From: Micromussa lordhowensis
Lineage: Eukaryota > Cnidaria > Anthozoa > Scleractinia > Lobophylliidae
Length of the DNA stretch: 64,000 nucleotides
NCBI GenBank assembly: GCA_964020085.1
Contig: OZ026607.1
Location: forward strand, 2,163,803 to 2,227,802
Direction of reading: 5' to 3'
Shown here: in pieces, positions 315 to 9,048 of the stretch
Numbering within the stretch: position 1 is the stretch's first letter
Layout of the letters: every line of letters begins with the position of its first letter
Notes under the pieces: model-generated
The model's database searches: none
Seen by the model: the letters and a program-made list of their open reading frames with translations, nothing else
What the model was told of the DNA's origin: nothing
Translations under genes and position numbers: made by a program

Positions 315-712
315 ATGGGGTGCCAAATCCGCCAAAATTATTGTTATACTATTATTAGGCATTACTCTGTTGTTATTAAGCATTGCCTTGTTATTATTAG
401 GCATGACTTTTCATTATTAGGCATTCCTCTGTTGTTATTAGGCATGACTTTTTATTATTAGGCATTAAATCGTAATTATTAGGCATTACTTCGTCATTAT
501 TAGGCATTGCGTTCTATTATTAGGCATTACTTTTTATTATGAGGCATGACTTTTTATTATTAGGCATTCCCTTTTATTATTAGGCATTACTTCGTCATTA
601 TTAGGCATTGCGTTTTATTATTAGGTATTCCTTTTTATTATTAGACATTCATTTTTTATTATGAGGCATTCCTTTTGTAGTATTATTGTGGTCAGCGGGT
701 TTACGCATTACA
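315..712 (+). repeat. Left terminal inverted repeat with 20-21-bp subrepeats
   Basis: It starts ATGGGGTGCCAAATCC and contains about 16 units of 20 or 21 bp with core ATTAGGCAT(T/G). The inner section, around 677-712, contains GTGGTCAGCGGGTTTACG, also present inverted at the inner end of the right TIR. The unit spacing equals two helical turns, so all cores face the same side of the DNA, as expected of serial transposase-binding sites (inference). The TIR ends 39 bp before the integrase ATG at 751 and probably holds its promoter. Confidence 0.88.
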
Positions 713-750
713 TCAGATGCCGTGAAGAAACGGAGAGAAACAACAAAGCA

Positions 751-2146
751 ATGACGACCAACACTACAGTTTCCGAGTTAAGGTACGAAATAACCTCCCG
801 ATTGAGAGAGATTGCTGCTTGTGTTGGGACAGCTGATAACAATGACTTGCTAGAAGAGCTTGAAGAAGTGCAGAAGCACATTACTGCTCTTGATTCACTG
901 ACACGGATACCTGAAGAACTGTTTAATTTGGTGAGTAGTGCTCGGTCAGTCCTTCATGAGAAGCAGGGAAGAGTAAGTGTTGTTCGTAGCGGCACTCCTG
1001 GAAGACCAGCGTTTCACATCAGTAAAGAACAACTTGCGATGCTTTTGAAAGCCAGATTTAGTGTCCCTTGTATTGCAGAGCTCTTGAACGTCAGTGCAAG
1101 GACCATAGAACGACGAATGCAAGAATACGGACTTTCGGTACGTGCTTTTTACACCGAAATACAGGATTGTCAATTAGATGACATAGTCAGAGACATAAAA
1201 TGAGGAAACCATGGCTGTGGTTCAAAAATGTTAATCGGGTACCTCAGTGCAAGGGGTATATTTCTTCCGAGAAGTCGGGTAAGAGAATCACTTTCAAGGG
1301 TTGATCCTCTTGCAGTTGCAGCACGACGCTGCAAGGCAATAAAAAGGCGTGTTTATAATGTAAAGAGGCCACTTGGTCTCTGGCACTTTGATGGCAACCA
1401 TAAACTGGTCAAGTGGCGCTTTGTTGTCCATGGCTGTGTGGATGGGTTCAGTCGACTCCCGGTTTTTCTATCATGTAGCACAAACAACACAGCTGCTACT
1501 GTGTACTCACTTTTTATCAAAGCGGTACAAGAGTGGGGATTACCATCAAGAGTCAGATGTGATCAGGGATCTGAAAATGTGGATGTTGTCAAATATATGC
1601 TGAGCACTCGAGGAACAGGAAGAGGCTCGGCTCTGGTCGGTAAAAGTGTGCATAATCAACGCATCGAACGATTGTGGCGGGATGTATTTGAAGATGTTTT
1701 GGCAAGTTTCTACGAGTTGTTTTCTCTGATGGAGGAACTGGGCATCTTAGACCCTTTATCGGAAATTGATTTATGGTGCCTTCATTTCTCATTCCTTCCT
1801 CATATTAACTATCGTTTACATGAATGGTCTGCCGCCTGGTCAAGACATCCCTTGTCAACGGCTAATAATAACACACCTCTTCAACTTTGGATCAAAGGTT
1901 CACTGAACTCTGCCGAAAACGGCAGACCCCATGGATGTCACCGATGTATATGGTATTGACTGGGATGGTCCTGTTCCCCTTGAGGAAGACACGGTAGAAA
2001 TTCCACCAACCTCTTCACCTCTGACAGATGAACAACTTGCTGAGTTCGATTCAAGAACAGCTTCCCTTCGGGAATCTTCCATAACAGATGACAAACTTAA
2101 ACTTTACAGACTTGCTAGAGAATTTCTTGAGCAACATGAGCCATAG
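751..2146 (+). pseudogene. DDE integrase (rve-type transposase), one stop and one frameshift
   Basis: This is the transposase of the surrounding element. The first part (ATG at 751 to 1200) is 150 residues: a helical N-terminus, then a helix-turn-helix-like segment (RPAFHISKEQLAMLLKARF, then ELLNVSARTIERRM). It ends at TGA 1201-1203, but the same frame continues through GNHGCGSK into an open stretch with the catalytic core. Counted from the Met at 1228, this shows D55 ([10 protein letters not shown]), D112 (VRCDQGSEN) and E147 ([10 protein letters not shown]), a DD34E triad. The frame closes at 1959, but the usual acidic tail ([14 protein letters not shown]...) is open in the +1 frame from 1931 to 2146, so a frameshift lies near 1905-1935. 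The ORF start at 661 lies inside the TIR and is less likely. An intron explaining the breaks is possible, but no good splice pair was seen. Confidence 0.85.
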
Positions 2147-3280
2147 ACCACCACATGAAATTTCTTCAATCTGCATCTTCTGCTACTTACATCTGGACAG
2201 ATTGATTGCAAACCATTACTTCTGTAAAAATAACTTTCAGATGTTATGAACGTTAATATATTTTTGCAATCGCTTTGGCCTGGGCTTTAGATGTCCATGG
2301 TAGGGCCCTTACGGCCTTTTTCAGCCCTGCTCGCACCAATGCGTACGGCCCTAATGCAGGGATTTTGCAAGCAGTCTTGCTATGGAAAGTGCTGGCGTGA
2401 CCATACTGGTGTTATGACCCACATTCATTATATTAGTTTTGCGCTGTACTTTTCACTTTGTTCGTCAATAAGAATGTAACACTGTATTCAGATAAAATTG
2501 CAACTCTTTATTTCATGTGAACGCAACAATTTCACAAAATCTTTAGCAACACCATTAACACTTTGCGACTTGAAACTAACACGCTAAAATCTGTTATGTG
2601 TTTGTTTATAATGTGCATGCCATAAGAACTGTAAAACCTTTATTGAATGACGTTGGGAATAACCGCCATAAGGAAATCATACTAGCACTGAACAACCAAA
2701 GACTTTGAGGGATGTGTTTAGGTGTCATTCCATTAGACCCCAACCCCGTGCTGAAGAAAAGGTCTACATTAAAAGGTGAATGGGGACATTTTCCTCTGGG
2801 CCGTCAAATTTTTCAAACAACAAACATTTGCATGCAAAGAAACGTTGATAAGCACATTTGAAACATACACCATTGATGGTAACTACTTTTACGAGAATCT
2901 TCAAATAGCAGTTTGCCCACCCTAATGTGGCTCTCTCTTAATCAACCAGGGCCCGGTTGTTCAAAAGCCGATTAACGCTAACCCCAGATTAAAAATTAAC
3001 CGAGGACTTTATTTCTCTACTCCTAAATGCTGTTCTACGCTGATATTTTGCAAAATTTTACTTTAGAAGAAGTCAATACTTAAAAACAAAAATAAGCAAA
3101 AGAAAGTTTCACCATAAAGTTAAAAACATGAAACAAAAGTTCACGCTAATCCTGGATTAAGTTAATCGGCTTTCGAACAACCGGGCCCAGGTACTTAAAA
3201 GAAGTAGCTTACACCAGTGATATTGTGTAATCTAGAGACATAGATAAGGAACAACATATTGCCTGCACAGACAGTAATAG
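2147..3280. other. Convergent intergenic region of the transposon
   Basis: Non-coding DNA between the 3' ends of the integrase and HECT genes. It holds the nested foldback element at 2949-3188 and presumably the 3'UTRs of both genes. Short open frames here (for example 2291-2479) have no recognisable content. Confidence 0.6.
2949..3188. mobile_element. 240-bp foldback element (MITE) nested in the transposon
   Basis: Inverted ends GGGCCCGGTTGTTC(A/G)AAAGC, followed by GATTAA on the left and its complement on the right, enclose about 190 bp of AT-rich DNA. CAG flanks the ends on both sides, so the duplication may be only 2-3 bp. There is no coding content. It inserted into the larger element, probably in the 3' region of the HECT gene. 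Confidence 0.75.
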
Positions 3281-7280: not shown

Positions 7281-7827
7281 TTACATATATGTTGCTATGT
7301 GTTATTATGACTTGTCATAACAATGTAATAACTCCTACCTGGGATGAATGGTGAAAAACAGTTCACCATTAACGCAACATTGGACTTTCATGTAATATTC
7401 TAGGGGGAACATGGCTTTGGGGGCAAGCATTTTTCCACAACTTATGTGAATAAGACATGATGAAACAGGACTGAAATGTTGGATCCTACCCCGTAAAATA
7501 ACATACTCAAAATATTGCCAAAATATTGCAACACACAGTCACGGTTTTGGTCACACACATTGTGTCATTAAATTCTTATCTACCCATCTCGCCCTTCTTC
7601 GAGGGAGGAGGTTGGCGATAAAAAATAACGTCACCCATCCACAGGTTGGGTCTGTTCAGAGGGGTCAACACGCTTCTTGTTCTTTTAATGCGAGTTCGGC
7701 CTTGAAACCATGAAAAATATGCTATTAAATTAGGGACAATAATTTGTGACAAGTGGATATTCCGGTCTTTCTTTCAAGAAATATATTCCATTTCTAAACA
7801 TCAAGCAATTCCAGTTGCACTTCTTAC
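7281..7827. other. HECT gene intron, possible unlocated linking exon
   Basis: Mostly AT-rich DNA. The first exon ends in phase 0 and the catalytic exon needs phase 2, so at least one exon should lie between. One weak candidate on the minus strand ends at 7339 (CCCAG before GTAGGA). Its frame contains VQCCVNGELFFTIHP, and its end phase fits the catalytic exon, but no acceptor was found that fits the first exon. The linking exon may have been lost or may simply be unrecognised. Confidence 0.35.
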
Positions 7828-8529
7828 CTTCATGTGCTCCCTCAACTTGTCCATCGATACGAATTGCAAACAGGAATTGCATATTTCCTCGAAAACGGTG
7901 GGGTCCGTATGGACTTGATCAGCGGTAATATCAATATTACATTGGATGGGACGAATATACACCCTTCCTTGCCCGATAAACTGCGAGATGTATGCCACGG
8001 TGTTCCCTTGAGGACCAGTGGGAATAAGGTGTAAATCGCGTTTTCCTGGTTCGGTGTACATCAATTCAAACCCTCCAGCATCAGAGAGCCTCGGAAAAGA
8101 ATCCACCAGAAGCGCATGTAGTCGAGGAAATTCACCGTCCACTGGAAGGGCAATTTTTTTATCACCTAAACCGCCCAGGAAAAGTTCCCTTTTCTCTTGA
8201 ACGGTTGGAACATCCGTCTGACTTTTGTCCGCCAAACAGACAAACTTCCTTGTGACGGTTTTCTCCTTTTTTTTCAAGGAAGTGCTGCGATATTTCTTGC
8301 TGGAGAACTTTCTATGAGTAGTTGTCGAGGATGTCCTCTTCTTGCCGTACACGTTGGGAAATAGCCGCTCCAATTCGGTTTTGTAATTGCTGCTTGAGGA
8401 CTGATTTGAAGAGGAATCAGTTCGCCTTTCAGTTTTGCTGTCTCCCTCCTCAGTGTCAGCGAGCCCTTCCATTGCTTTCACGGCCTTAGTGAGCAGATCT
8501 TTCAGTTCACTCACGTTCTTCTCCGCCAT
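7828..8529 (-). CDS. HECT E3 ligase gene, first exon (N-terminal region)
   Basis: Starts at ATG 8529, 39 bp from the inner edge of the right TIR, and runs 234 codons to a donor AAG|GTAAG at 7828 (phase 0). A Ser-rich region (about residues 35-60) and a basic region precede a conserved module with the blocks TRKFVCL, GLGDKKIALP, FPRL...GGFELMY and GRVYIRPIQ. This arrangement is one I recognise from the N-termini of G2E3-like HECT proteins. The exon ends in CNSCLQFVSMDKLREHMK, the first half of a zinc finger that the intron would split. This is the evidence for joining it to the HECT exon 3.1 kb away; the join itself is inferred. Confidence 0.75.
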
Positions 8530-8568
8530 GTTTGCCTCGTGTTATACCTTGTCATACCTTGTGAAGTT

Positions 8569-9048
8569 TGTAATGCGTAAACCCGCTGACCACAATAATA
8601 CTACCAAAGTAATGCCTAATAATGACGAAGTAATGCCTAATAATGACGAAGTAATGCCTAATAATGACGAAGTAATGCCTAATAATAAAAGGGAATGCCT
8701 AATAATAAAAAGTCATGCCTCATAATAAAAAGTAATGCCTAATAATAGAACGCAATGCCTAATAATGACGAAGTAATGCCTAATAATAAAAGGGAATGCC
8801 TAATAATAAAAAGTCATGCCTCATAATAAAAAGTAATGCCTAATAATAGAACGCAATGCCTAATAATGACGAAGTAATGCCTAATAATTACGATTTAATG
8901 CCTAATAATAAAAAGTCATGCCTAATAACAACAGAGGAATGCCTAATAATGAAAAGTCATGCCTAATAATAACAAGGCAATGCCTAATAACAACAGAGTA
9001 ATGCCTAATAATAGTATAACAATAATTTTGGCGGATTTGGCACCCCAT
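8569..9048 (-). repeat. Right terminal inverted repeat with 20-21-bp subrepeats
   Basis: Inverted counterpart of 315-712, ending GGCACCCCAT. It contains about 20 units (ATGCCTAATAAT plus spacer) against about 16 on the left. A block of five units (about 8,680-8,780) is repeated almost exactly as the next five (about 8,780-8,880), which accounts for most of the 82-bp size difference. The outer 11 units match the left TIR nearly base for base. It probably carries the HECT promoter. Confidence 0.88.

Follow-up and report, generated by a model that had tools for sequence, protein, structure and literature searches.

A DNA transposon of the coral Micromussa lordhowensis with a predicted HECT ubiquitin ligase gene facing its transposase

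DNA transposons of the IS3EU/GingerRoot superfamily have TA..TA ends and mostly 6-bp target duplications, according to the main text of PMC10045372, and the termini of the fungal IS3EU elements are given as TAYGG..CCRTA in the main text of PMC12730594. The same text describes elements from rust fungi and truffle that have an alpha-kinase gene opposite to the transposase and a TET/JBP gene between them, in one conserved order, and its author infers that the TET/JBP gene serves the escape from silencing. In another group, the transposases of Ginger1 carry OTU or Ulp1 domains, and PMC2836005 proposes a wide involvement of the ubiquitin pathway in transposition. Here, we analyzed a 64,000-nucleotide stretch of the genome of the coral Micromussa lordhowensis (GCA_964020085.1, contig OZ026607.1, positions 2,163,803 to 2,227,802; hereafter, the window), where the sequence predicts a complete DNA transposon of 8736 bp at positions 314-9049, with a transposase gene on one strand and a HECT gene facing it on the other. 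This is very probably a two-gene transposon. The best explanation of the whole, to which we assign a probability of roughly two in three, is an IS3EU/GingerRoot-type two-gene transposon whose ligase likely marks a host protein that restrains it.

Structure of the element and its two genes

The boundary of the element was set at TATGGGG..CCCCATA, which gives TA..TA termini. The arms at 314-656 and 8707-9049 form an inverted repeat that is 97% complementary, and a shared 49-bp block takes both terminal inverted repeats (TIRs) further inward, to positions 712 and 8569. A 29-bp end pattern, searched with up to 3 mismatches, occurred twice in the window and in none of 100 shuffles, in agreement with the inverted ends claimed in a preliminary description of this DNA. 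The flanking duplication had been given there as the 8-bp AGATTCAT; these letters are present, but the true duplication is the 6-bp GATTCA, and the longer reading arose because GATTCA has on each side one base, of the element or the flank, that matches by coincidence. By its ends and duplication, the element likely belongs to the IS3EU/GingerRoot superfamily.

The preliminary description also placed a DD34E integrase and a convergent HECT ligase on opposite strands inside the same ends, with both starts about 40 bp from the TIRs, and this arrangement was recovered by Pfam matches, the DD34E residues, and the HECT fold. The transposase matched PF24764 (rva_4) in a Pfam scan, with an E value of 4.7e-80. 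An uninterrupted relative of 393 amino acids found elsewhere, P0121, was 97% identical over the matched part, and its conserved acidic residues are D244, D301, and E336, i.e., DD34E; the first D, residue 244, lies about 214 residues from the second Met, within the range of 100-300 residues from the N-terminus of IS3EU/GingerRoot. On the other strand, the HECT protein reached 34.8 bits against PF00632, for a cut-off of 23.9. The AlphaFold model of the catalytic exon had a mean predicted local distance difference test (pLDDT) score of 76.6 and a predicted template modeling (pTM) score of 0.70, and when searched with Foldseek it matched solved HECT domains, the best being the HECT domain of Smurf2 (E value of 1.9e-12). 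The C-lobe Cys was invariant in the 25 HECT proteins aligned, and the same residue was aligned in 9/9 transposon HECT C-lobes, which had been chosen for their HECT likeness. By the HECT motif, we take this invariant residue to be the putative catalytic Cys. The product of this gene is predicted to be a ubiquitin ligase. The start codons lie just inward of the TIRs, that of the transposase at 751, 38 bp from the left edge (712), and that of the HECT gene at 8529, 39 bp from the right edge (8569).

The gene models of both genes were built by sequence only. The coding stretches of the HECT gene are open in the window copy and form at least two exons around an intron that bears a TTATG array (Table 1). 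No OTU or Ulp1 protease domain was detected when the two open reading frame (ORF) pieces of the transposase, up to the last part of the frameshifted C-terminus, were scanned against Pfam. In the N-terminal part of the transposase, all helix-turn-helix matches were below threshold, and no zinc-binding integrase domain was found by a general Pfam scan that included no test aimed at the HHCC zinc motif, which IS3EU/GingerRoot transposases lack ahead of the core. The transposase profile gave no match when compared with solved structures.

The genome searched, of 581 Mb, contained five matches to the TIR of this family: the two ends of the window element, the two ends of a second element (C6), and one single end (C9). 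The C6 element measures 6991 bp, has the same ends with a 6-bp duplication of its own, GGCTTG, contains both genes, and is 99.3% identical to the window element over 4680 aligned bases. At the C9 locus (L007:659-1958), a left end of the family precedes a piece of that region in inverted orientation, adjoining a gap of N. The preliminary description had considered the case that other copies of these TIRs consistently lack the HECT gene; both full elements, i.e., four of the five TIR matches, have it, and the fifth match is a broken piece. At the intron site, the C6 copy has TTATG runs of only 4 and 2 units, against 471 in the window, suggesting that the array expanded after the copies split, or an assembly effect.

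Table 1. Features of the element in the window
Feature	Position	Strand	Remarks
Left target site duplication	308..313	.	GATTCA, 6 bp
Left TIR	314..712	+	399 bp, begins TATGGGGTGCC; 16 copies of a ~20-21 bp repeat at 350-685
Transposase gene	751..2146	+	Integrase core rva_4 (PF24764), DD34E; TGA in frame at 1201-1203, frameshift at ~1.92 kb
HECT gene, catalytic exon	3281..4724	-	Bears PF00632, with the Cys within TCGPVLQLP; 5' limit 4724 or 4660 by splice site
TTATG array	4926..7280	.	471 perfect copies, inside the HECT intron
HECT gene, first exon	7828..8529	-	Basic stretch, N-terminal domain, CxxC..H motif
Right TIR	8569..9049	-	481 bp, ends CCCCATA; 20 copies of a ~20-21 bp repeat at 8606-9013
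Right target site duplication	9050..9055	.	GATTCA, 6 bp

Around the element, the window opens with 7.6 copies of a 12-bp tandem repeat, CCGTGGTCCGGT, at 1-90. Beside the transposon, at 13191-62379, there is an array of several ZNFX1/NFX1-like helicase genes on both strands; AAA_11/AAA_12 were detected in the five ORFs scanned, and the ZNFX1 domain PF25396 in the first of them.

Pairing of HECT and transposase genes

The pairing was then analyzed across the genome with two lists of loci. The first held 136 HECT loci, merged from matches of the window HECT query and PF00632 and including ordinary large host HECT genes, and the second held 159 transposase loci, merged from matches of P0121 and PF24764, where scoring covered 105 of the 875 and 150 of the 900 candidates. 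A transposase was found within 8 kb of 25 of the 136 listed HECT loci, while 2000 random placements gave a mean of 0.77 and a maximum of 5. At these 25 loci, the nearest pair was convergent in 21 cases, tandem in 2, and divergent in 2; when the gap was 3063 bp or shorter, all 18 pairs were convergent. Since some pairs are copies of one another, the 25 do not represent 25 independent events. In the reverse direction, a listed HECT locus was within 8 kb of 24 of the 159 transposase loci. At two further HECT loci, C4:19.18 Mb and C6:2.68 Mb, which are copies of each other, a transposase fragment absent from the lists lies convergent to the HECT gene.

The pairing was also checked from the transposase side, with a HECT profile run against the DNA flanking 28 transposase loci, which form 15 clusters at 80% DNA identity. 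Six pieces with E values below 0.05 were detected, from four clusters, and all six lay on the strand opposite to the transposase and downstream of it, with none in the three control flank classes. The scan covered only about 0.8-1.4 kb downstream of each transposase, and loci with no HECT piece are not thereby decided. Moreover, an ORF convergent to another transposase (L048) was 34% identical to HECT exon 1 over 173 amino acids (E value of 7e-26), and it is possibly a shortened version of the gene. This ORF, L048:1-843, has a weak SAM-like start, below the cut-off, in addition to the exon-1 domain, and no HECT domain was present in the 585 bp before the transposase.

A divergent family gave a third element with defined ends. 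The element at C1:33.25 Mb (L071:956-7298) is 6343 bp long, with TA..TA ends flanked by the duplication CATTGT. It is inserted in a reverse-transcriptase pseudogene, which gave an RVT_1 match of 65 bits on one side. Its TIRs, of 305 bp and 99% alike, are unrelated to those of the window and are built of ~19-bp tandem repeats. The transposase, on the + strand, and the HECT gene, on the - strand, are convergent, and they are 44% and 34% identical to those of the window, respectively, the latter value coming from partial sequence. Seven further paired loci were searched for ends, and TA ends with a 6-bp duplication were found at two of them, L006 and L071. TA..TA termini and 6-bp duplications (GATTCA, GGCTTG, and CATTGT) are present in all three elements with ends found, i.e., the window, C6, and C1 elements. 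The idea that the HECT gene is a transposon gene, put forward in the preliminary description, is upheld by these data, as two insertions of one family and one of a divergent family enclose both genes, and the convergent pairing extends genome-wide.

Among the other loci, L015 and L016 are copies at the 99.5% level, and their sharp edge does not have the form of a TA end; L068 and L072 are 98% copies whose likeness runs on past the element. Two HECT-transposase pairs, oppositely oriented and separated by about 4.5 kb, lie within C2:39022794-39036612, and L072, which is one of the two, matches a third pair, located at C2:36.42 Mb, as a 98% copy.

Beyond this genome, a search of prokaryote genome contigs with the transposase alignment returned four contigs, all of them in metagenome-assembled genomes (MAGs) of sponge symbionts. 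One of these, L075 (8.2 kb, from the MAG of an Iophon sponge symbiont), shows a transposase on the + strand and a convergent HECT gene on the - strand, the latter with 28.5 bits against PF00632 (cut-off of 23.9), and further upstream an ORF that by eye resembles the HECT N-terminal domain. The HECT C-lobe of L075 is 48% identical to that of the coral family L051, and the contig is likely to be sponge DNA. The contigs L073 and L076 are too short downstream to show whether a HECT gene is present. No relative was found among prokaryote genome contigs with the HECT alignment, or among viral contigs with the HECT protein, the HECT alignment, or the transposase alignment as queries. A protein search showed that HECT relatives with host-type names are common among animal proteins. 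When named animal HECT proteins were compared with the HECT N-terminal domain, only weak matches were obtained, and the N-terminal region of a sturgeon protein used as query returned only sturgeon relatives (three proteins).

Possible role of the ligase and alternative readings

Since the pairing recurs in distant relatives and in the likely sponge contig, the ligase likely serves the transposon and not the host. In the mechanism that we propose, each TIR would drive one gene, so that transposase and ligase would be made together. The transposase would likely bind the arrays of ~20-bp repeats in the TIRs, cut the element out, and paste it at a 6-bp staggered site. The N-terminal domain of the ligase would recruit the target, and the C-terminal Cys would pass ubiquitin to it. 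As the protein marked by the ligase, our preferred guess is a host silencing or restriction factor that restrains the transposon. The conservation of the two proteins is the reason for this preference: among five paired families, identity was 22-36% for HECT and 41-57% for the transposase, and HECT was the less conserved protein in all ten comparisons, which were made with partial sequences. We read this as pressure from changing host targets, as in an arms race. That the target is such a host factor, and not the transposase itself, is nevertheless put forward tentatively, at clearly less than even odds.

Several observations weigh against the reading of a two-gene transposon with a ligase of its own. 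The window transposase is broken by the in-frame TGA and is frameshifted relative to the C6 copy (Table 1), while in the C6 copy a stop interrupts each of the two genes and the first HECT exon has indels; as assembled, both copies therefore fall short of a working autonomous element. In the HECT gene, the best splice donor (7827) and the best acceptor (4724) are out of phase, and a predicted transcript would therefore need a weaker acceptor at 4660, which is in phase with that donor. The exon 2 sequences of the window and C6 copies differ by six non-synonymous changes, two synonymous changes, and one stop codon change, a pattern with no sign of purifying selection in these recent copies. At the genome scale, 111 of the 136 listed HECT loci had no listed transposase within 8 kb, including the two closest HECT relatives outside the family, at C2:5405938 and C11:15588903 (47% identical), where none occurred within 1.5 kb either. 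These last two (L010, C2:5404438-5408577, and L011, C11:15587403-15591542) are 97-98% copies of each other with open frames of 450 amino acids, and they are perhaps HECT-only mobile copies. The TIR search at L068, L069, L070, L072, and L075 gave nothing above shuffles. In one of the sponge-symbiont contigs (L074:2489-4211), the transposase is followed by ORFs that by eye are retrotransposon pol-like, with no HECT gene. Finally, the faster divergence of HECT fits relaxed constraint equally well, and the distances of HECT and transposase were uncorrelated across nine families (Mantel r -0.13, p 0.78). The co-phylogeny of integrase and HECT, which the preliminary description had proposed to examine, thus found no overall support. 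Only one pair, L051 (coral) and L075 (sponge), grouped in both trees, with support of 0.84 and 0.99, and the HECT pair of L071 and L041 (support of 0.99) was not a pair in the transposase tree. The uncorrelated distances suggest that exchange of HECT between lineages is likely, as the main text of PMC12730594 describes for fungal TET/JBP genes.

The alternative that survives best keeps the same two-gene transposon and lets the ligase ubiquitinate the transposase or the strand-transfer complex, either to limit dose or to hand broken DNA to host repair. The TIR-proximal starts agree with it, as both genes would be co-expressed, and so does the suggestion of Bao and co-workers (PMC2836005) that the OTU/Ulp1 domains of Ginger1 act in transposition or repair. 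However, if HECT recognized its own transposase, the distances of the two proteins should track each other, and the Mantel result, weak because of the short C-lobes, gave no sign of this; the faster divergence of HECT, weak because of the partial sequences, also speaks against it. We regard this alternative as unlikely.

Somewhat less probable still is that the HECT gene is a passenger that plays no part in transposition. In this case, transposons would have captured a G2E3-like gene of the host, either repeatedly or early. The abundance of HECT relatives with host-type names in animal proteins, the stops in the HECT genes of recent copies, and the 450-amino-acid open frames kept by the closest unpaired relatives are all in line with it, and the discordance of the trees would fit repeated capture or exchange. 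Against this stand the convergent orientation of every close pair, the location of all six pieces of the blind flank scan in one flank class, and the same arrangement in the likely sponge contig, because random capture would not give a fixed place and one orientation. In addition, divergent transposon copies retain the putative catalytic Cys. Lastly, chance nesting, with HECT as an independent mobile unit or a host gene enclosed once by an IS3EU element, is scarcely credible: it could draw on the many listed HECT loci with no listed transposase nearby, but it is already contradicted by the target duplications that enclose the two genes together in two insertions and in a divergent family, and by the excess of pairs over random placements.

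With the preferred reading of a ligase that serves its transposon, a wider proposal can be made, for which the chances seem to us slightly short of even: that HECT is an ancient conserved second gene of the animal IS3EU branch, present in at least cnidarians and sponges, where it would act as a counter-defence enzyme against host silencing, and that the large families of G2E3-like HECT genes annotated in corals and fish consist mostly of genes of transposons or of what is left of these after domestication. If true, this would explain the numerous G2E3-like HECT genes in some animal genomes, and it is a warning for corals and fish, where expanded gene families may be the cargo of transposons. 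Known cargo of transposons undoes DNA methylation or removes ubiquitin-like tags; an E3 ligase of its own could allow a transposon to send host proteins to destruction, and the substrates of such a ligase would be a lead to what restrains DNA transposons in animals.

Comparison with known systems

The preliminary description regarded a transposon with its own E3 ligase as an undescribed class. This has to be divided, as the kind of element is known, i.e., IS3EU/GingerRoot, but the literature searched, which did not include the original GingerRoot paper or the Repbase entries, gave no transposon with a HECT ligase gene; in the main texts of PMC10045372 and PMC12730594, HECT and ubiquitin are absent. 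The window element shares with IS3EU/GingerRoot the TA..TA ends, the 6-bp duplication, and the integrase-like transposase, and its TATGG..CCATA fits the fungal TAYGG..CCRTA as written in the main text of PMC12730594; it differs by the HECT gene that faces the transposase. The G2E3-like proteins of Acipenser, Parambassis, Paramuricea, Oculina, and Antedon have a homologous HECT domain, with about 36-48% identity, but they are annotated as host genes, and their N-terminal region matches exon 1 weakly (hhalign probability of 14.5).

The fungal IS3EU elements that bear TET/JBP, as presented in the main text of PMC12730594, also have a second enzyme gene opposite to the transposase; there, the cargo is an alpha-kinase and a TET/JBP dioxygenase, whereas here it is a predicted ubiquitin ligase. 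Like Ginger1 (PMC2836005), the window element links an integrase-type transposase to the ubiquitin/SUMO pathway. The Ginger1 domains, however, are fused to the transposase and strip ubiquitin or SUMO, while the window element has a separate gene whose product is predicted to add ubiquitin.

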